Below, one piece after another: positions 7,045 to 28,197 of a stretch of DNA of 64,000 bases. The stretch comes from Lawsonibacter sp. (lineage in GTDB: Bacteria; Bacillota; Clostridia; Oscillospirales; Oscillospiraceae), in assembly GCA_022791995.1 (NCBI GenBank), contig JAAWAD010000074.1, positions 1 through 64,000 of the forward strand, read 5' to 3'. Position 1 is the first letter of the stretch. Each line of letters begins with the position of its first letter. The position numbers and the translations under genes are program-made. The notes under the pieces were generated by a model, which saw nothing but the letters and a program-made list of their open reading frames with translations, made no database searches and was not told the origin of the DNA.

Positions 7045-8046
7045 ATGTCAGAAGTCCTATCCCAAAGTCAGATTGACGCCCTTCTAAGCGCCTTTAACAG
7101 CGGCGGCGACCAGCCGCCAGAGGAAAAAGCGCCGGAGAAGAAATATCGAAAATATGACTTCAGCAGTCCGCGGAAGTTCACCAAGGACCGCATCAAGATG
7201 CTCAACGGCATTTTTGAAAACTACAGCCGGCTGATCAGCTCCCGGCTGAACGGCCTGCTGCGCATCAACTGCGAGGTCTCCCTGGAGAGCATCGAGGAGC
7301 AGAAGTATTTTGAATTCTCCAATGCTTTGACCGAAGGCGACGTGCTTGCCATAGCAGAGGTGGATTTGAAGGGCAACGAGGACCAGCCGCCTGTGATGTT
7401 CTACCTGGCCAGACATACGGCCCTGACCATGATGGACCGGATGATGGGCGGAGAGGGCAGCGTGGGGGACGAAATCCCCTATGACTACACCTATACCGAC
7501 CTGGAGCTCCAGCTGTATGAGACCCTGGTGGAGGACATGATAAACGTGATGGGCAGCAGCTGGGAAAACTACATCGCCCTGAAGTTTACCTACACCAGAA
7601 CCGAGGTCAACCCCACCCTGGTGCAGCTGTTGGGCCTGGACGAGACCATCGTCATCGTGGACATGAAAATCCTGATGGAGGACAGCGAGGGCCGCATGAG
7701 CCTGATTCTTCCAGGGACCCTGCTGACCAACGTCTTTGCCCAGATGAGTCTGGAGAACCCGGGACGGAAAATCCACAGCGAGGACAACTCCGAGGAGATT
7801 TTCGACAAGCTGCGGGATTCCAGTCTGGAGATTGTGGCCCAGCTGGGGGATACCCAGCTGTTCCTCAGCGACATCTACCACCTGGCCGTGGGCGACGTGG
7901 TGGACCTGGGCCGGCCCAAGGACGCCCCCATCTTCCTGGAAATCGGGGGCTACCAGTGGTTCAGCGGACGCATCGGCACGTATAAGAAAAATATGGCGGT
8001 CAAGATAGACGAGGTTTGCTATCAGGCCGAGCAAAGGAGCGAGTAA
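7045..8046 (+). CDS. fliM: Flagellar motor switch protein FliM
   Basis: 333 residues. The ATG at 7045 is preferred over a GTG at 7033 because it gives the standard MSEVLSQSQIDALL N terminus, the CheY-phosphate-binding peptide. The CheC-like middle domain is inactive as in other FliM proteins (SRLNGLLRINCEVSLESIEE). The C-terminal SpoA-like domain (LAQLGDTQLFLSDIYHLAVGDVVDLGR with interruptions) joins the C-ring. It is followed 6 bases on by fliY. Confidence 0.95.
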   Translation: MSEVLSQSQIDALLSAFNSGGDQPPEEKAPEKKYRKYDFSSPRKFTKDRIKMLNGIFENYSRLISSRLNGLLRINCEVSLESIEEQKYFEFSNALTEGDVLAIAEVDLKGNEDQPPVMFYLARHTALTMMDRMMGGEGSVGDEIPYDYTYTDLELQLYETLVEDMINVMGSSWENYIALKFTYTRTEVNPTLVQLLGLDETIVIVDMKILMEDSEGRMSLILPGTLLTNVFAQMSLENPGRKIHSEDNSEEIFDKLRDSSLEIVAQLGDTQLFLSDIYHLAVGDVVDLGRPKDAPIFLEIGGYQWFSGRIGTYKKNMAVKIDEVCYQAEQRSE

Positions 8047-8052
8047 CACAGG

Positions 8053-9498
8053 ATGGAGAGGGAACTTTTCAGCGCGATGGCCATAGACGCCCTCGGCGAA
8101 ATGATGAATATCAGCCTTGGCTCCTCGGCCACCGCCGTATCCAATATGCTGGACCATCGGGTGGATATCACCACCCCGACGGTGACGGTGGTGAAGGTCA
8201 AGGACTTCTCCCTGGGCAACCTGGAACCGGCCATGGGGGTGGAGATCAAGTACGTCGAGGGCCTGGAAGGCGGCAATATTATGCTGCTGAAGAAGAGCGA
8301 CGTCAAGGTGATCGTGGACATCCTCATGGGCGCAGAGACGCCGGAGGAGGAATTTGAACTCAACGAGCTGACCATCAGCTGTGTGTGCGAGGTCATGAAC
8401 CAGATGATGGGCTCAGCAGCCACTGCAATGTCGGACTTCCTGGGGTTCCGGGTGGATATCTCCACCCCAGAGCCCTTCGAGCTGGATGATTTGGACGCCT
8501 TTAAGGATGAACACATGCCCAAGGGGGCAGAGACTGTCGTCATTGTCCATTTTGCCCTGAAGATTGAGAACGCGCTGGAGAGCGAGTTCATGAACATCAT
8601 GTCCATTGAGCTGGCCCGGGAGCTGCTGAAGGGACTGGGACTGGAGGACGAGGTCAATCTGGAGGCCGCAGGCGGTTCTGCGCCCGCGCCGGCTCCCGTC
8701 CCTGCCCCAGAGCCCGAGCCCGCTGGTGACAGCAATCGGATGATGAGCCAGGAGGAGATTGAGCGTATGCTGTCTGGAGGTATGGAAGCAGAGCCTGCCC
8801 CGGCGCCCGAGCCGGAGCCTTCCGGCGGCAGCAACCGGATGATGAGCCAGGAGGAGATTGAGCGGATGCTGTCCGGCGGTATGGAGGCGGAACCGGCTCC
8901 CGCCCCTGCTCCTGCCCCAGCCCCTGCTCCTGCGCCAGCCCCCGCCCCGGCACCGGCTCCCGCCCCCGCGCCTTCTGCACCAGCGGCCCAGATGCCCAGT
9001 GCGCCCGGAATGACAGTGGGGCAGATGCCCCCCTATCCGGCCCCCGGCGGGGAGGGCGCTCCCTTCTCCAACGGTTATATGGGATACCCTCCCATGTACT
9101 ATCCGCCCTACCCCTACCCCTATCCGCCCCAGCCTGCGGCAGAGCCCCCCGCGCCGCCTGAGCCGAAGGTCATCGCCACCAAACCCCTCCCCATGAAGGA
9201 GATGGACGTGGCGGAGAAAATCGGCAAGGAGCAGGCCCAGAACCTGGAGCTTATCATGGAGGTCCCCCTCCAGGTGACGGTGGAAATCGGCCGAACCCGG
9301 CGGAAGGTCCAGGATATCCTGGAGTTCTCCAAGGGCTCGCTGGTGGTGCTGGATAAGCTGGCCGGCGATCAGGTGGACCTGTTCGTCAACGGCAAGTGCA
9401 TTGCCCGGGGCGACGTGGTGGTGGTAGAGGACAACTTCGGTGTGCGGATTACGGAAATTGTCCAGAACCCCGGCCTGGAGCTGCTGGCGAAAAAATAA
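8053..9498 (+). CDS. fliY: Motor switch phosphatase FliY (CheC-like + FliN) with duplicated C-ring peptide motif
   Basis: 481 residues. Residues 1-205 are a CheC-like phosphatase with both active sites intact by the (D/S)x3Ex2Nx22P rule: D12/E16/N19 and S109/E113/N116. Residues about 400-481 are a FliN/SpoA domain. The long Pro/Ala linker contains two near-identical 33-residue units (8731-8829 and 8830-8928), each with SNRMMSQEEIERMLSGGMEAE, resembling the CheY-P-binding peptide that FliM carries at its N terminus. This FliY has no such peptide at its own N terminus. Confidence 0.93.
   Translation: MERELFSAMAIDALGEMMNISLGSSATAVSNMLDHRVDITTPTVTVVKVKDFSLGNLEPAMGVEIKYVEGLEGGNIMLLKKSDVKVIVDILMGAETPEEEFELNELTISCVCEVMNQMMGSAATAMSDFLGFRVDISTPEPFELDDLDAFKDEHMPKGAETVVIVHFALKIENALESEFMNIMSIELARELLKGLGLEDEVNLEAAGGSAPAPAPVPAPEPEPAGDSNRMMSQEEIERMLSGGMEAEPAPAPEPEPSGGSNRMMSQEEIERMLSGGMEAEPAPAPAPAPAPAPAPAPAPAPAPAPAPSAPAAQMPSAPGMTVGQMPPYPAPGGEGAPFSNGYMGYPPMYYPPYPYPYPPQPAAEPPAPPEPKVIATKPLPMKEMDVAEKIGKEQAQNLELIMEVPLQVTVEIGRTRRKVQDILEFSKGSLVVLDKLAGDQVDLFVNGKCIARGDVVVVEDNFGVRITEIVQNPGLELLAKK
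8731..8928 (+). repeat. Two tandem 99-bp units in the fliY linker
   Basis: The two units differ by a few mostly silent changes. They encode SNRMMSQEEIERMLSGGMEAE twice and are followed by a Pro-Ala run (about 8886-8990). The phase is exactly 33 codons, so copy number can change without a frameshift. Confidence 0.9.
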
Positions 9499-19836: not shown

Positions 19837-21135
19837 ATGAGCAGCAAGTATATTGTCCGGCAGCCGATTAAGGATGCCGAAGGGATGATCTTGGGGTACG
19901 AGATCCTATATTACGGCGAAAATCAGGCCTTCAGCGGAGACAACAGCAATTCCTCTGCGGAGTTTGCTGCGGCTGATACCATCTATACCTTCCTGACCCA
20001 GAACTCCACGAAGGCACTGAAGGGCACACGGAATTTCATGACCTTCACCACCATGCTCTTGATGAAAAAGACGCCTAGGCTCTTTGACAAAAATGAGCTG
20101 GTTATCCAGATTGACGACAGCGTGATTATCCACCCCCTGTCGATGCACTTTGTCCAGCAGTACGCCAAGGAGGGGTATCGGATCGCGGTCAATGAGTTCC
20201 AGTTTGCCCCCCGGTATCTGGCCCTTCTGGACGGTATTGACTACATCAAAATCAATGTCAAAACGGCCACCGACGCCAACATCAGCAACATTATGGAGAT
20301 TGGGCACAGCATGAACAAAAAGTGCATTGTGACCAATATCGACAGCCCGGAGCTCTATGAGAAGGCAGTCCAGATGGGGGCCGACGCCCTGGAGGGTCCC
20401 TATGTGGCAGAGAAGCTGACCACCAAGGCCCACAGCAGCGCCTACATCCAGAGCAACTTCTTCCGTCTGATGGTGGCGGTGACCCGGGATGAGCCCAATG
20501 TGGAGGAGATCGAGCAGCTGATTGCCGCCGACGCCAGCTTGACCTATGGTCTGTTGAAGATGGTGAACTCGGCCTATTTTGCCCTGCGGCACCGGGCGAC
20601 GACCATCACCCAGGCCATCATGACCCTGGGCCTGGGTCAGCTGAAGCAGTGGATTTACCTGCTCAGCGCCAGCAACGCGGAGAGCGAGATGGACGCAAGC
20701 TCTGAGGAGTTTTTGAAGATTTCTTTCCTGCGGGCAAACTTTTGCAGCGAGCTGATGAACCACGCCCAAAATATGCCCATTTCCAAGTCTGAGGCTTACC
20801 TGATGGGGATGTTCTCTACCCTGAACTATCTGATTGCCGCCCCCCTGGAGGAGATCCTCAGCGAGGTTCCGGTCAACGATCAGATCAAAAACGCCCTCCT
20901 CAAGCATGAGGGCCGGTGCGGAATGCTCTACGATCTGGTGCTCAGCTATGAGGCTGCCGACTGGGATAAGATCACGTCCCTGTCTGGTCAGCTGGGAATC
21001 CCAAGCAACATGATGACCAGCATCTACTTCATCTGTATGGAGAATGTGAATACTCTGTGGGAGCAGCTGACCAACCCCTATGCCGGACAGCTTCCAGACG
21101 AAGCGGAGGCTGGCGCAGGCGCCCCCAACGTATAA
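19837..21135 (+). CDS. Degenerate EAL + HDOD domain protein
   Basis: 432 residues. Residues 1-200 fold like an EAL domain (YIVRQPIKDAEGMILGYEIL ... IDYIKINVK ... GADALEGPYVAEKL), but the metal and catalytic positions are lost: the DDFG motif reads VNEFQF and the QGYxF end reads EGPYVAE. Residues about 200-400 are an HDOD domain (AADASLTYGLLKMVNSAYFA). The architecture matches YuxH-like proteins. A phosphodiesterase is unlikely; a scaffold or c-di-GMP sensor is possible. It is the last gene of the long operon. Confidence 0.88.
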   Translation: MSSKYIVRQPIKDAEGMILGYEILYYGENQAFSGDNSNSSAEFAAADTIYTFLTQNSTKALKGTRNFMTFTTMLLMKKTPRLFDKNELVIQIDDSVIIHPLSMHFVQQYAKEGYRIAVNEFQFAPRYLALLDGIDYIKINVKTATDANISNIMEIGHSMNKKCIVTNIDSPELYEKAVQMGADALEGPYVAEKLTTKAHSSAYIQSNFFRLMVAVTRDEPNVEEIEQLIAADASLTYGLLKMVNSAYFALRHRATTITQAIMTLGLGQLKQWIYLLSASNAESEMDASSEEFLKISFLRANFCSELMNHAQNMPISKSEAYLMGMFSTLNYLIAAPLEEILSEVPVNDQIKNALLKHEGRCGMLYDLVLSYEAADWDKITSLSGQLGIPSNMMTSIYFICMENVNTLWEQLTNPYAGQLPDEAEAGAGAPNV

Positions 21136-21229: not shown

Positions 21230-21910
21230 CTACCGGGTGTGGTGGGGGCGAGTCATAACCTGCTTGCAGGCATTGATGAGCTGGGCAGTGATGTCGCTAC
21301 TGAACCGCCCCTCGTAAAAGGTGAGTTTGGGAATACGGTCTCCCTCTCCCATGACCACATATTTGGGGGGCAGATGGTTGAGCGCCAGCGCCTTTACATC
21401 GGCAAGACACCGGGAGCAGGAGCACAGACCAAACATCTGCACATATTTTTCCGCTTTCTCGTCCACCAGGTACTGCATGACATTGATGTATTCGGTGGCC
21501 TCCTCGTCCGGGTGGGCGGAGGTCAGGGGAACAGAGGCCGGAGGGGCCGATACTGGTACGGGCTCCGGCTCAGGCTGTGGCTCCGGTTGTGGGGCCGGAG
21601 CAGGTACCGGCGCGGGCTCCGGCTCCAGCTCTGGAGCGGCCTGTACAGGGAGCTCCGGCGGGGCGGGGGGCTCCAGCTCCCGGGCCAGGGCGTCCTCAAG
21701 CGCGTCCTTGATCTGAGCGGAGGCGGCGGCGTCCGCTCCGATAGAGGAGATAATAGGAGGACCGGGAGGGGTGGGCACGGGCGCGGCGGGGGCGTCCGGG
21801 GCCGGAGCCGGGGCGGCGGCCTCTTCGGCGGGAGCGGGCTCGCGGCCCCGCCGGACCAGATTCATCACATGGGAGGTCTTGGTGGATTTCGACTTGTCAT
21901 TTTTGGCCAT
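21230..21910 (-). CDS. ComFB-domain protein with basic N terminus and Pro/Ala linker
   Basis: 226 residues in three parts: a basic N terminus (MAKNDKSKSTKTSHVMNLVR, then RG), a long Pro/Ala/Glu linker with a short predicted helix (about 57-80), and a C-terminal ComFB-like domain (about 138-190) with INVMQYLVDEKAEKY, cysteines C163/C165/C168 (CSCSRC) and DVKALALNHLPPKYVV. ComFB-family proteins are reported elsewhere to bind cyclic di-nucleotides, and the cysteines likely hold zinc. It sits 14 bases after the parA-like gene. A basic tail is how many ParA partners trigger ATP hydrolysis, so a ParA partner role is inferred. Confidence 0.8.
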   Translation of the reverse strand: MAKNDKSKSTKTSHVMNLVRRGREPAPAEEAAAPAPAPDAPAAPVPTPPGPPIISSIGADAAASAQIKDALEDALARELEPPAPPELPVQAAPELEPEPAPVPAPAPQPEPQPEPEPVPVSAPPASVPLTSAHPDEEATEYINVMQYLVDEKAEKYVQMFGLCSCSRCLADVKALALNHLPPKYVVMGEGDRIPKLTFYEGRFSSDITAQLINACKQVMTRPHHTR

Positions 21911-21924
21911 GAAAAAACACTCCT

Positions 21925-22731
21925 TTACTTGAACAATGCGCTGAAGAAGCCCTTGCTCTTTTCCGGGGCGGCAAACTTATCGCCGCCTACCAGGTCCACA
22001 ATGGCCTGAAGGTCCAGAGCCGGCTTGGATTTTGGCTGGTAGGTCAGAACGCTCTGTCCGTGGGCAGGGGCCATCGCCACGCCCACCCCCCGGTGGACCT
22101 TGGAGTCGAAAACCTTGGTGTCCAGCTGCTGGGCCACCTCCTCCGCCAGGTCCAGAATCTCTCGGGACAGGGTCAGACGGGGATTGTACTTGTTAATCAG
22201 AATGCCCAGCACCTTCAGATTGGGGTTGAAGGTGGTCTGCACCGCCTCAATGGTCTCCTGAAGCTGGGTGATGCCCACCAGACTGAGCACCTCGGCCTCC
22301 ATGGGGACAATGAGGCCGTCGGAGGCCACATAGGCGTTTACAGTGAGGATGTTCAGGGCAGGGGGGGTGTCGATGATGATAAAGTCGTACCGGTCCTTCA
22401 CGGTGGAAAGCTGCTGCTCCAGCATGAACTCCCGCCGCAGGGAGGTGAACTCCACCTCTGCGGCGGACAGCATAATATCCGAGGGGAGTACATCGCCAAA
22501 CTCGGTGGAGACGATGGCCTCCTGAATGGAGCAGTTACCCTTAAGCACATCATAGATGGTGCTGCTGCTGCCGATGTCCAGTCCCAGGGTAAAGCCCAGG
22601 TTGCCCTGGGGGTCCAGGTCAACCCCCAGAACCCGCGCCCCCCGTTGACTGAGCCCGCAGACAAGGGCGGAGGCGGTGGTGGTCTTACCCACGCCGCCCT
22701 TTTGATTGGTCACGGTAATAATTCGGGTCAA
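21925..22731 (-). CDS. ParA/Soj-family ATPase
   Basis: 268 residues starting from a TTG after AAGGAGGG. It has the deviant Walker A QKGGVGKTT (residues 10-18, including the ParA signature Lys), VDLDPQGNLG, and DFIIIDTPPALNILTVNAYV. It belongs to the ParA/Soj branch rather than obviously to FlhG/MinD: there is no clear C-terminal amphipathic membrane helix. No parB or parS-like element is beside it. The location between the fla/che operon and fliD suggests it positions a motility or chemotaxis cargo. Confidence 0.88.
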   Translation of the reverse strand: MTRIITVTNQKGGVGKTTTASALVCGLSQRGARVLGVDLDPQGNLGFTLGLDIGSSSTIYDVLKGNCSIQEAIVSTEFGDVLPSDIMLSAAEVEFTSLRREFMLEQQLSTVKDRYDFIIIDTPPALNILTVNAYVASDGLIVPMEAEVLSLVGITQLQETIEAVQTTFNPNLKVLGILINKYNPRLTLSREILDLAEEVAQQLDTKVFDSKVHRGVGVAMAPAHGQSVLTYQPKSKPALDLQAIVDLVGGDKFAAPEKSKGFFSALFK

Positions 22732-22776
22732 GGAATATTCCCTCCTTACAACACAACAAAAACTCGGGGAAACTCT

Positions 22777-22803
22777 TAACTTTACTATACTACATGTCGA
22801 TAA
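22777..22803 (+). promoter_or_regulatory. Sigma-28-type promoter for fliD-fliS-fliT
   Basis: TAACTTTA (22777-22784), an 11-base spacer, then GTCGATAA (22796-22803), against the known consensus TAAAGTTT-N11-GCCGATAA. It is about 110 bases upstream of the fliD start. A GGGCGC/GCGCCC hairpin (22871-22889) lies in the leader just before the ribosome site. Confidence 0.8.
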
Positions 22804-22913
22804 AAAAATATAGAGGTAGATCAGAAAAAAATTGAAAAAATTTTTTCCTGCTTATCTTTTGCAGATATCAGGGCGCGGCAGGTGCGCCCAGAGGTGAAAG
22901 GAGCGATCTCAAT

Positions 22914-25438: not shown

Positions 25439-25852
25439 ATGGATATCAAAGGGTTCCAAGAGTATCGGAATCAGCGGGATCAGGCTGTGGACACCATGAC
25501 GCCGGGGGAGTTGCTGCTGCTGCTCTATGACGAGCTGGTGAAGCGGCTGACACGGGCTGGGCTGGCTCTGGACAAGAAGGACTATGCACTGTTTGAAGCC
25601 TCTGTGGACCGGAGCCTGGAGATCATTCGCTACCTGGACGATACGCTGGATATGCAGTACCCCATCAGCCGCAACCTGAACCGGCTGTATGATTACTTCA
25701 GCTATGAGCTGAACCGGGTGAAGGCCGGCCGCAACCGGACCGAGCTGGACCGGGTCAGGCCGATGGTCTGCGAGCTGCGAGACTCCTTCCGGCAGGCGGA
25801 GAAGACCACGCAAGCCGAGCTGGAAGCCGGCGCAGCGGGAGAGGGCTCATAA
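25439..25852 (+). CDS. fliS: Flagellin export chaperone FliS
   Basis: 137 residues with the FliS pattern: MTPGELLLLLYDELVKRLTR, then LEIIRYLDDTLDMQYPISRN and LYDYFSYELNRV. FliS binds the flagellin C terminus in the cytoplasm until export. It follows fliD by 20 bases and overlaps the next gene by one base. Flagellin itself is not in this window. Confidence 0.95.
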   Translation: MDIKGFQEYRNQRDQAVDTMTPGELLLLLYDELVKRLTRAGLALDKKDYALFEASVDRSLEIIRYLDDTLDMQYPISRNLNRLYDYFSYELNRVKAGRNRTELDRVRPMVCELRDSFRQAEKTTQAELEAGAAGEGS

Positions 25853-26241
25853 TGGAGCAGGACCTTTTGATGAAGGCGCTGGTTCAGGCAAAGCGGATGG
25901 GGAACCTGCTTAACGAGGTGCAGGATCTGACCCAGCAGATTGCCGAGTCGGTGGACCGGAACGACCAGGTCAGCATGGAGATGCTGGTGGCCATGCGGCG
26001 CGAGCCCATCAACAAGCTGGAGGAGACCGAGCAGGCCCTGCGGGACCTGGCGGAGACCTACCCGGATGCAGAACTGGCCCTGGAGCTGATTGCGCTGATT
26101 AACGGCGAGCCGGCCACAAAGCCGGCCGGCCGGGCGTTGGAGGAGCAGATCGCCTCAAACAGGCGGCGGCTGACACAGATTCTTCAGCTGGACCGGGTGC
26201 TGAACAAGCGGATGGCCAGAGAAAAATCCGTGTATCAATGA
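25852..26241 (+). CDS. Probable FliT/FlgN-like flagellar chaperone
   Basis: 129 residues, mostly alpha-helical with heptad-like charge patterns (LMKALVQAKRMGNLLNEVQD ... LEEQIASNRRRLTQILQLDR). I do not recognise a firm family signature. The place after fliD-fliS is where fliT is found in many bacteria, and the size fits an export chaperone for FliD, so FliT-like is an inference from context. Confidence 0.6.
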   Translation: MEQDLLMKALVQAKRMGNLLNEVQDLTQQIAESVDRNDQVSMEMLVAMRREPINKLEETEQALRDLAETYPDAELALELIALINGEPATKPAGRALEEQIASNRRRLTQILQLDRVLNKRMAREKSVYQ

Positions 26242-26361: not shown

Positions 26362-27318
26362 TTAGGCGGCGGGCCGGGCAACGGCCCAGACAGGCGCTCC
26401 GCTGGTTCGGCTGCGGGAGAGTTCATCCAAAATCAACTGGGGGTCCCAGGTGGTCAGGCTCCGGTCCAGACTGCTGGGGTCCGCCACCAGAAGATTGCCG
26501 CTGGGGGCGACGCCCCGCAGAACGATGAAGTGTCCCCCCTGGGTGAAGTGGCCCGGCCCCATCAGAGCCACCAGGAGCTTTCCCTCTGCCAGGGCGCTGG
26601 TCACCCCCTCCGGGGTCCAGTCGGTGAAGGACTCCGCCTCCAGACCGAAGGCTTGGGCGGCCCCCTCCACGATGGAGTGATAGGAGCCGCTGCGTCGGGC
26701 CCAGTATCCGTGCTCCACAGCCCATTGGGCCATCTGAACGGGATCAGTTTCCTCTTCCGTCAGGCTGGCTACCACGATAGCCATGGCGGTGGGCCCGCAG
26801 CCATAGCGGCCAATGTCATCGCTGCCGTAGGGCAGCTCAGCCCAGTCCTCGTCCCCCTGGTTGAAGTAGACAATGTCAAGCCACCCGCCGGTGAGAACCT
26901 GACGCCCCTCTACCAGGCGCAGCTCCGTGACGGCGGAATAGATAATAGGCGTGTCCAACGCCGGCTGGCTGACCTCCTGATCGTCAGGGGGCGGCTCAGA
27001 CAGGGCCTTTGCCTCGGCTTCCGCCCGGGCCTTGGCCTCCGCACGGCGGGCCTCTGCCTCTGCCAGACGGACCTCGACCTCTGCGCGCAGGGCGGCCAAC
27101 TCCCCTTGAACGGTCTGCCAGCGCTGGAGCGTATACGCCGCTGCCTGATGACAGACCTCGGAGAGGACGGCGGACGCCTTGTACACCGGAGCCATAAGCT
27201 CCTGATAGAGTGCCGGCGCAAAACGGCGGCAGGCAGCCAGCTCCGCCGTTCCGATACATAGAACAGCCAGGAGAAGAACCAGCGCGATATTCCGCTTGTT
27301 GTGATTTCGCCTTTTCAT
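26362..27318 (-). CDS. Membrane-anchored C39-like cysteine peptidase
   Basis: 318 residues: a basic start and one membrane helix (about 10-29), an Ala/Glu/Arg coiled coil (about 68-107), then a Peptidase_C39_2-type domain (about 145-318) with a putative triad C174 (GRYGCGPTAMA), H263 (GGHFIVLRG) and D280 (LLVADPS). It should act outside the membrane on a peptide or wall component; the substrate is unknown. It has its own sigma-A promoter and diverges from an FtsE-like ATPase gene. Confidence 0.85.
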   Translation of the reverse strand: MKRRNHNKRNIALVLLLAVLCIGTAELAACRRFAPALYQELMAPVYKASAVLSEVCHQAAAYTLQRWQTVQGELAALRAEVEVRLAEAEARRAEAKARAEAEAKALSEPPPDDQEVSQPALDTPIIYSAVTELRLVEGRQVLTGGWLDIVYFNQGDEDWAELPYGSDDIGRYGCGPTAMAIVVASLTEEETDPVQMAQWAVEHGYWARRSGSYHSIVEGAAQAFGLEAESFTDWTPEGVTSALAEGKLLVALMGPGHFTQGGHFIVLRGVAPSGNLLVADPSSLDRSLTTWDPQLILDELSRSRTSGAPVWAVARPAA

Positions 27319-27350
27319 GGGTCTACCTCCGGCGGAATGAGTATGAAGCC

Positions 27351-27378
27351 ATTATAGCAGACTTGCAGCGATTTGCAA
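27351..27378 (-). promoter_or_regulatory. Sigma-A promoter for the C39 peptidase gene
   Basis: On the - strand TTGCAA, a 16-base spacer, then a perfect TATAAT; it is about 33 bases upstream of the start codon, with a GGAGGT ribosome site between. Confidence 0.75.
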
Positions 27379-27423
27379 AGGGGAGCGGCGCTCCGCCCTC
27401 GAATTGAGAAGCAGGAGACAGTT

Positions 27424-28197
27424 ATGCCCACCATTGAATTGGAACATGTCACAAAACTGTATAAGCTGGACCGGCGCAAGCACGGCGGAAAGCGATTTGA
27501 AGTAGGTGTCAAGGACGTGGACCTCACCATTCAGCAGGGGGAGTTTGTCTTTGTCATCGGCAGCAGCGGAGCGGGAAAGAGCACTCTGCTGAACCTGATT
27601 GCAGGCACCATGAAGCCCAACTCCGGGCGGGTCAGCGTAGACGGCAAGGACCTGTCCTGGATGATGCGCTGGAGCCGGAACCGGGTCTCCCTCCTGTTCG
27701 GAAAGGTCCTTCAGGAACCTTCCCTGATCCGCAAACGGACCGTGGAGGAAAACCTGGCCCTGGCGGCCCGGATTGCGGCCTCCCGCATGGAGCTTGACAA
27801 GAGTTTTCAGGCCCGGGTGAAAAAGGTCCTGGGTCTGGTGGGGCTGCGGGGCGTGGCCAAAAAGTACCCTATTGAGCTCTCCCTGGGGGAGTTCCGCCGG
27901 GTGGAGCTGGCCCGGGCGCTGATCAGCAGCCCGCCGATTCTGGTGCTGGATGAGATTACCGCAAATTTAGACGACGACAGCATTTGGGACATTATGCATC
28001 TCCTCAATGAAATCAATCACCGGGGCACCACCGTGATTATGGCGACCCACGCCAGTCAGTATGTGAACATCATGCGCCGCCGGGTGGTGACGCTGGTGGA
28101 CGGTCAGGTGTTTGGCGACGTGAAAAAAGGAAAGTACGGGGAAGTGAGCGAAAAAGGGCCAGGGGCCTTCACACTCTACCGAACCGATTTAATATAG
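27424..28197 (+). CDS. FtsE-like ABC transporter ATPase without an adjacent permease
   Basis: 257 residues from the ATG at 27424 (AGCAGGAGA site). Walker A GSSGAGKST at 46-54, signature LSLGEFRRVELARAL, Walker B ILVLDEI, then THASQYV. The N-terminal half resembles FtsE (EFVFVIGSSGAGKSTLLNLI), but there is an Arg/Lys-rich insert near residue 15 and no ftsX-like gene beside it. FtsEX normally activates wall hydrolases. It may serve a distant FtsX or a macrolide-type exporter. Confidence 0.8.
   Translation: MPTIELEHVTKLYKLDRRKHGGKRFEVGVKDVDLTIQQGEFVFVIGSSGAGKSTLLNLIAGTMKPNSGRVSVDGKDLSWMMRWSRNRVSLLFGKVLQEPSLIRKRTVEENLALAARIAASRMELDKSFQARVKKVLGLVGLRGVAKKYPIELSLGEFRRVELARALISSPPILVLDEITANLDDDSIWDIMHLLNEINHRGTTVIMATHASQYVNIMRRRVVTLVDGQVFGDVKKGKYGEVSEKGPGAFTLYRTDLI

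Follow-up and report, generated by a model that had tools for sequence, protein, structure and literature searches.

What does a ParA-type ATPase do next to a ComFB-domain protein inside a flagellar gene cluster? The question is raised by a 64,000-nucleotide stretch of Lawsonibacter sp. DNA (assembly GCA_022791995.1, contig JAAWAD010000074.1, positions 1 to 64,000; called the window here). In it, a gene for a ParA/Soj-type ATPase with an intact KGGVGKTT deviant Walker A motif (21925..22731, minus strand, 268 amino acids, TTG start) is followed 14 bases downstream by a gene for a 226-amino-acid ComFB-domain protein (21230..21910, minus strand), which we call the partner. The original prediction, made from the sequence, proposed that the two proteins place a motility or chemotaxis cargo under the influence of a cyclic dinucleotide. 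Both open reading frames (ORFs) were as claimed, and so was the layout of the partner, with a basic N terminus, a Pro/Ala linker, and a ComFB domain containing CSCSRC (residues 163 to 168). The claimed position between flagellar/chemotaxis genes and fliD was also borne out, as cheV and the gene for an EAL-HDOD protein lie on one side of the pair and fliD lies on the other. We propose, at about even confidence and from sequence comparison, that the pair is a motility-dedicated ParA-partner (A/D ATPase) system, belonging to the Oscillospiraceae-type flagellar cluster, that acts on the flagellar C-ring and replaces FlhF/FlhG.

If the pair serves flagella, the two genes should travel with them. 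The ParA orthologue, defined by at least 53% identity over a search of 99 genomes in which the next matches were at 43%, was present in all 32 of the FlhA-positive genomes among 60 genus-mates. Of the FlhA-negative genus-mates, 27 lacked it and one, G049, which is 79% complete, carried it. Gene order was conserved as well: as far as the fetched stretch reached, comFB/parA adjoined fliD-fliS-orf129-C39 peptidase-ABC ATPase-MCP (methyl-accepting chemotaxis protein) in 15 of 20 fetched loci, and the che/flh side (cheV, cheD, cheC, and the genes up to flhA if the stretch extended that far) adjoined the pair in 7 of those 15 and fell outside the fetched stretch in the other 8. The full gene order recurred in two other families, in genomes G255 and G337. 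Twelve other FlhA-positive members of the G337 family were FlhF positive, 11 of them without a ComFB match and one (G461) with a short one of 93 amino acids. The FlhA of G337 was 65% identical to that of the window versus 45 to 49% for five other members of the order that have FlhA, which suggests that the flagellar cluster of G337 was swapped as a block.

The linkage extended to named genomes, for which 80 of 296 matching loci were kept, including those of Oscillibacter sp. 1-3 and Flavonifractor plautii ATCC 29863. Thirteen of the 80 were left out of the partner counts because the partner runs off the contig. ParA was encoded directly upstream and on the same strand for 66 of the 67 complete long partners, at a median gap of 25 bases and with 55 to 83% identity to the window ParA, and other fla/che genes were found in the locus for 65 of the 67 (fliD in 60 and cheV in 47). 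Oscillibacter valericigenes, the type species of its genus, is reported to be motile by peritrichous flagella (PMC3558957). The original prediction had named the lack of conserved linkage across relatives as grounds for abandoning it, and the linkage was found in both the genus-mates and the named genomes. We conclude from these gene neighborhoods that the two genes are a conserved pair tied to flagella and not a chance neighborhood.

A general pairing of ParA with ComFB proteins was considered and rejected. ParA was encoded in 3 of 60 ComFB loci, and each of these three is part of the flagellar pair: the locus of the window, that of G059 (which is of the long type), and a locus of G017 in which a short ComFB gene lies just behind the long partner. 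A 237-amino-acid ComFB protein of G179 had no ParA within the 8 kb fetched. Separately, G065 encodes a second, unlike ParA (38% identical) whose gene overlaps a ComFB-domain gene (L054:8956-10324); the product of the latter has a different basic N terminus, and no flagellar gene of the reference set was found in that stretch.

FlhF was missing where the pair was found. A search of the source genome returned nothing over the cutoff, with FtsY and Ffh as the two best matches, and FlhF exceeded the cutoff in none of 61 genus members and in 3 of the 99 genomes of the wider search. An FlhG query gave no match in the source genome at an E value of 1e-15. Its strong matches were confined to two of the three FlhF genomes of that wider search, G061 and G085, the latter being the genome of the query itself, and it was not a sharp test because it missed the third, G086. 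Within the genus it gave weak matches only, at 29 to 30% identity; FlhA-negative members gave such matches too, a pattern that MinD would produce. Thus, of the two proteins whose presence elsewhere in the genome was raised as an objection, FlhF was found neither in the genome nor in the genus members, and FlhG went undetected by the less sharp query. Neither this check nor that of linkage refuted the original prediction.

The same relationship was seen in a class sample of 391 genomes, of which 112 had ComFB, 147 had FlhA over the cutoff, and 109 had both; G380 was left out of these counts because its FlhA was below the cutoff. The sample gave 134 FlhF matches, 133 of them over the cutoff and 133 of them in FlhA-positive genomes. 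All four FlhA-positive genomes that bear the pair (G000, G072, G255, and G337) were FlhF negative versus 133 FlhF-positive genomes among the 143 FlhA-positive genomes without a detected pair, one of the 133 (G458) being below the curated cutoff (Fisher's exact test, P = 5e-5, relatedness ignored). Pair status was assigned by inspecting ComFB frames of more than 200 amino acids and 30 ComFB loci without ParA, and most other ComFB genomes, which have short frames, lay outside the adjacency check. As a side observation, the ComFB proteins of the sample, which are mostly short and stand-alone, themselves track flagella; one of the three ComFB-positive genomes without FlhA, G171, has FlhF.

A candidate cargo emerged from FliY, a C-ring protein of the family of phosphatases for phosphorylated CheY (CheY-P). 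FliY of the window (8053..9498, plus strand) lacks an N-terminal EIDAL motif and carries in its linker two MSQEEIERML motifs, at residues 231 to 240 (8743..8772, plus strand) and residues 264 to 273 (8842..8871, plus strand). FliY was compared in 49 genomes, namely, the window genome and those of the fetched loci (40 pair-less and 22 pair-bearing) that remained after omission of 11 of the 40 pair-less loci that lacked a whole CheC-FliN fusion and of three pair-bearing FliY proteins cut at the 5′ end (G039, G043, and G255), and the N-terminal motif was scored over the first 45 residues. FliY started with (L)(S/T)Q..I(D/N)AL in 21 of 21 FlhF-positive, pair-less genomes, none of which had the linker motif, and the N-terminal EIDAL was found in 0 of 20 pair-bearing genomes. 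The linker motif was present in 17 of the 20 pair-bearing versus 0 of the 29 pair-less genomes, and in the remaining three pair-bearing genomes (G007, G027, and G072) the partner itself had four to six copies, in G072 as a variant. The first 36 residues of FliY (FliY-N36) are reported to be necessary and sufficient for FlhG binding (PMC12327844). What is new here is the loss of the FliY EIDAL in pair-bearing genomes together with a similar motif in the FliY linker, the partner, or both, and in the sequences compared, the pair is always present where the EIDAL-like motif reappears at another site.

The motif is shared between FliY and the partner. In many relatives, the partner linker has one to six copies resembling GGKMSQ(D/E)(D/E)IE(K/R)(M/L)LA, and the core common to both proteins, MSQEEIE(K/R)(M/L)L, occurs in the linker of FliY, in tandem in the partner, or in both. 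Among ORFs of at least 60 residues in the 80 named loci, 49 of 49 core-motif matches fell in ComFB ORFs; fliY was outside this count because flhA separates it from those loci. In 18 genomes in which both proteins were whole, the eight partners with no copies went with a FliY having at least two, and the ten partners with at least three went with a FliY having one or none. The copy numbers were thus inversely related (Spearman coefficient of -0.90, relatedness ignored and the G072 variant counted). The comparison left out the cut partners of G016 and G035 and the three 5′-cut FliY proteins named above; the coefficient was -0.74 with 21 genomes, including the incomplete FliY of G043 and G255. 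On a tree of ParA plus FliM, the motif switched between FliY and the partner at least three times.

The N terminus of the partner is of the kind expected for docking on a ParA. Its first 25 residues have a net charge of +5, and the charge ranged from +2 to +8, with a median of +4, across 65 partners. Within this region lies the peptide KTSHVMNLV (residues 11 to 19; 21854..21880, minus strand), a proposed ParA-docking element in which K11, T12, V15, and L18 were invariant in 22 of 22 aligned partners. The corresponding motif KTxx[VI][LMI]xL was found near the N terminus of 65 of the 67 complete long partners of named genomes, the other two being L143, which also lacks ParA, and L180, which reads KTAHVLNV. 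A second conserved element, residues 51 to 75 (PPIISSIGADAAASAQIKDALEDAL; 21686..21760, minus strand), overlaps a predicted helix at residues 60 to 79, and this PPI-plus-helix element was kept in most of the 22 aligned partners, among which the linker was variable in length and makeup. An AlphaFold model gave short helices at residues 11 to 23 and 60 to 79, a confident ComFB fold at residues 139 to 220, and loops elsewhere, with the N terminus and its short helix modeled at low confidence. Pfam assigned ComFB alone, with no ParB/CTPase domain, no helix-turn-helix domain, and no other family at E values up to 1, and NCBIfam gave a ComFB model below its cutoff and one chance match. Partners of A/D ATPases are reported to use positively charged N termini (PMC10241942). 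The part of the original prediction that concerned a ParA partner therefore stands as to the conserved basic N terminus, and docking on ParA is a role that the sequence suggests.

The ATPase belongs to the ParA/Soj type. It matched the Pfam family AAA_31 with an E value of 9e-56, the solved sequences nearest to it were ParA/Soj proteins, and no NCBIfam family exceeded its curated cutoff among the best 25 of 39 matching families. Both Walker A lysines, including the signature lysine, were lysine in 38 of 38 flagellar ParAs. The source genome has two other ParA-family matches, a Soj that is 42% identical to the window ParA and has a Spo0J-like gene beside it (by eye) and a MinD-like protein. DQAxxLR, the named N-terminal activator motif of FlhG (PMC12327844), was absent from the window ParA, which starts at the P-loop strand, and was present in two FlhG-like proteins encoded beside flhF (L091 and L093).

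The ComFB domain (residues 139 to 222; 21245..21496, minus strand) matched the Pfam ComFB model over residues 143 to 222 with an E value of 5.6e-18 (65 bits versus a cutoff of 25) and did not reach the NCBIfam late-competence ComFB equivalog (30 bits versus 120). ComFB of B. subtilis is described as obligately dimeric and as coordinating zinc with four cysteines, three of them clustered and the fourth remote (PMC4381287), and the same CxCxxC-plus-distant-cysteine pattern (C163, C165, C168, and C215) was invariant in 22 of 22 partners. The domain model superimposed on B. subtilis ComFB (4wai) with a TM score of 0.73 and on c-di-GMP-bound CdgR (8hja) with TM scores of 0.64 to 0.72, each with Foldseek E values of 0.003 to 0.03. 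By profile comparison, the domain was nearer to the zinc-binding B. subtilis ComFB (E value of 1e-7) than to the c-di-GMP receptor CdgR (a weak match, E value of 0.07), and the conserved cysteines fell outside the stretch aligned to CdgR. ComFB of Synechocystis is reported to bind both c-di-AMP and c-di-GMP (PMC12313861), and the source genome encodes enzymes for both messengers, with two GGDEF matches and one DAC match. Second-messenger gating through the ComFB domain, part of the original prediction, is only a hypothesis because the domain is closer by sequence to B. subtilis ComFB than to CdgR.

In the mechanism that we propose, the partner is expected to dimerize through its putatively zinc-binding ComFB domain, and the basic KTxxV(L/M)xL peptide would dock on the ParA dimer and trigger ATP hydrolysis. 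The EIDAL-like MSQEEIE(K/R)(M/L)L motifs of the partner or the FliY linker, which could bind ParA, the C-ring, or CheY-P, would tie the system to the C-ring and/or CheY-P. The pair would then assume the role of FlhF/FlhG in determining the site or the number of C-rings or basal bodies. The least certain step is that the ComFB domain may tune placement to c-di-AMP, c-di-GMP, or zinc. A fuller version of this account, in which FliY lost its FlhG-docking peptide along with FlhF/FlhG, an EIDAL-like motif arose anew in the linker of FliY and, as tandem arrays, in the partner, and the pair became a substitute system for placement and number with cyclic dinucleotide or zinc input, is tentative and rather doubtful as a whole.

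Several observations weigh against replacement of FlhF/FlhG at the C-ring. Ten FlhA-positive genomes of the class sample had neither FlhF nor a detected pair, and enterobacteria are reported to be peritrichous without FlhF/FlhG (PMC12826062), so that a genome that has lost FlhF does not necessarily require a replacement. Among eight FliY proteins from genomes lacking both FlhF and a detected pair, six lacked the N-terminal EIDAL and none had the linker motif, and thus loss of EIDAL goes with loss of FlhF rather than with the pair. In the window genome itself, the partner has no motif copy. The inverse copy numbers reduce to three independent pairs on the tree, with opposite directions for the two proteins (sign test, P = 0.25), and this tree test is the only one that takes the kinship of the genomes into account. 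Of the arginines through which Soj binds DNA nonspecifically, the one in NVRL was replaced by A, G, L, S, or V in 38 of 38 flagellar ParAs, so that nucleoid binding is not assured, although there are other basic positions that were conserved. Nor was a C-terminal membrane helix conserved, as the tails of the window ParA and 35 orthologues were unlike one another; FF-type ends occurred only in G000 and G039 (by eye), and membrane targeting through the C-terminal KGFFSALFK was rejected. Sigma-28 control of parA was likewise rejected, with scores in the parA direction like those of shuffled sequences. Finally, the source is an incomplete metagenome-assembled genome (2.18 Mb, 101 contigs, 80% complete).

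An unlikely alternative is that the cargo of the pair is a chemoreceptor array or some other complex for chemotaxis, as with ParC/ParP or PpfA/TlpT, and that FlhF/FlhG were simply lost. The neighbors cheC, cheD, and cheV, and the MCP gene further on, speak for this reading, and ParC and PpfA are known as ParA-family ATPases for chemotaxis clusters (PMC10241942), but the partner has no Pfam domain except ComFB. The fate of the FliY peptide, lost with FlhF, and of the similar motif, found elsewhere only with the pair, argues for placement at the C-ring and not at receptor arrays. The original suggestion is thereby narrowed, as the shared EIDAL-like motifs favor the C-ring protein FliY (or else CheY) over receptor arrays. 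We conclude that the C-ring is the most likely cargo on these sequence grounds.

Improbable, too, is that the partner serves to dock or buffer CheY-P, with the repeats binding CheY-P and ParA only spreading this sink within the cell, so that switching rather than placement is tuned. The EIDAL of FliM is reported to be the CheY site (PMC6946799), for which reason the MSQEEIE motif could bind CheY-P only, a further point against a placement role. FliY belongs to the CheY-P phosphatase family, and FliM of the window retains its N-terminal LSQSQIDALL peptide (7057..7086, plus strand), which was kept as LSQSQID.LL in 19 of 20 FliM proteins inspected; the remaining one was a fragment. However, the partner of the window genome is devoid of motif copies, as are the partners of 7 of the 17 other genomes in which both proteins were whole, and so CheY-P buffering is not the general role of the partner. 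An ordinary partition-like pair with the chromosome or a plasmid as its cargo, located among the flagellar genes by coincidence, would explain the Soj-like ATPase sequence but is very improbable given the separate Soj with its Spo0J-like gene and the lack of a DNA-binding domain in the partner (Pfam), and it is largely refuted by the near-perfect co-occurrence with FlhA in the 60 genus-mates and the conserved neighbors across families.

C-ring placement in lieu of FlhF/FlhG resembles, and departs from, several known systems. Like FlhG (also called YlxH or FleN), the ATPase is a P-loop protein of the ParA/MinD superfamily encoded in a flagellar cluster, with a proposed tie to FliY through an EIDAL-type peptide. 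Unlike FlhG, it is Soj-like and lacks both DQAxxLR and a conserved C-terminal membrane helix; moreover, no FlhF was found with the pair, and the partner carries a ComFB domain. ParP and TlpT are the partners in the ParC and PpfA systems that position chemotaxis clusters, and these systems share with the pair a ParA-type ATPase and a partner encoded with chemotaxis genes, but the partner here has ComFB and no other Pfam domain. McdA/McdB, an A/D ATPase system that positions carboxysomes, and other systems of this kind likewise combine a ParA ATPase with a largely unstructured partner having a basic N terminus; their cargo is different, and the partner described here ends in a structured, signaling-type domain. 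With ComFB and CdgR receptors the partner shares the modeled ComFB fold and the conserved zinc cysteines of B. subtilis ComFB, but to our knowledge no described member is a ParA partner. The described members are tied, in the sources cited, to competence, pili, or cell size (PMC4381287, PMC12313861, and PMC13075795). A literature search covering titles and the openings of abstracts, with few subscription papers or preprints, found no link of ParA with ComFB in flagella. We conclude that the pair is a variant of the ParA/MinD positioning systems for which that search found no description.

The surrounding genes were labeled by Pfam or NCBIfam as encoding FlhB, a sigma factor, CheC, CheV, the EAL-HDOD protein, CheD, FliD, FliS, an ABC ATPase, an MCP, FlhA, FliM, FliY, and two rod proteins of the FlgE/F/G type labeled FlgG. 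The EAL-HDOD protein (19837-21135) begins with EILYYG where the typical EAL motif is expected and is probably not an active phosphodiesterase, judging from its sequence. The intergenic stretch shared by parA and fliD (22732-22913) contains a box similar to the sigma-28 consensus, TTAA-N16-GTCGATAA, which faces only fliD and recurs in relatives. After fliS comes a gene for a 129-amino-acid protein (25852-26241) with no Pfam match over the cutoff; a relative was present in 60 of 60 complete named loci that hold fliS, and our guess is that it is a FliT-like chaperone. Next are a C39-peptidase-like gene (minus strand) and the ABC ATPase gene (26362-28197), both of which relatives keep between fliS and the MCP gene; the ATPase is FtsE-like by eye, and no FtsX gene was seen beside it.

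What the sequences show is the pairing of the two genes, their tie to flagella, the absence of FlhF, the absence of the N-terminal EIDAL from FliY, and the presence of the motif in FliY as well as in the partner. The pair is a concrete candidate for what governs flagellar location and number in peritrichous bacteria that lack FlhF/FlhG. It is conserved in a lineage of gut bacteria, some strains of which are in culture, and its predicted docking peptide, target motif, and signaling domain can each be tested separately. Finally, the presence of FlhA in 109 of the 112 ComFB-positive genomes of the class suggests that ComFB proteins may have a role in motility.
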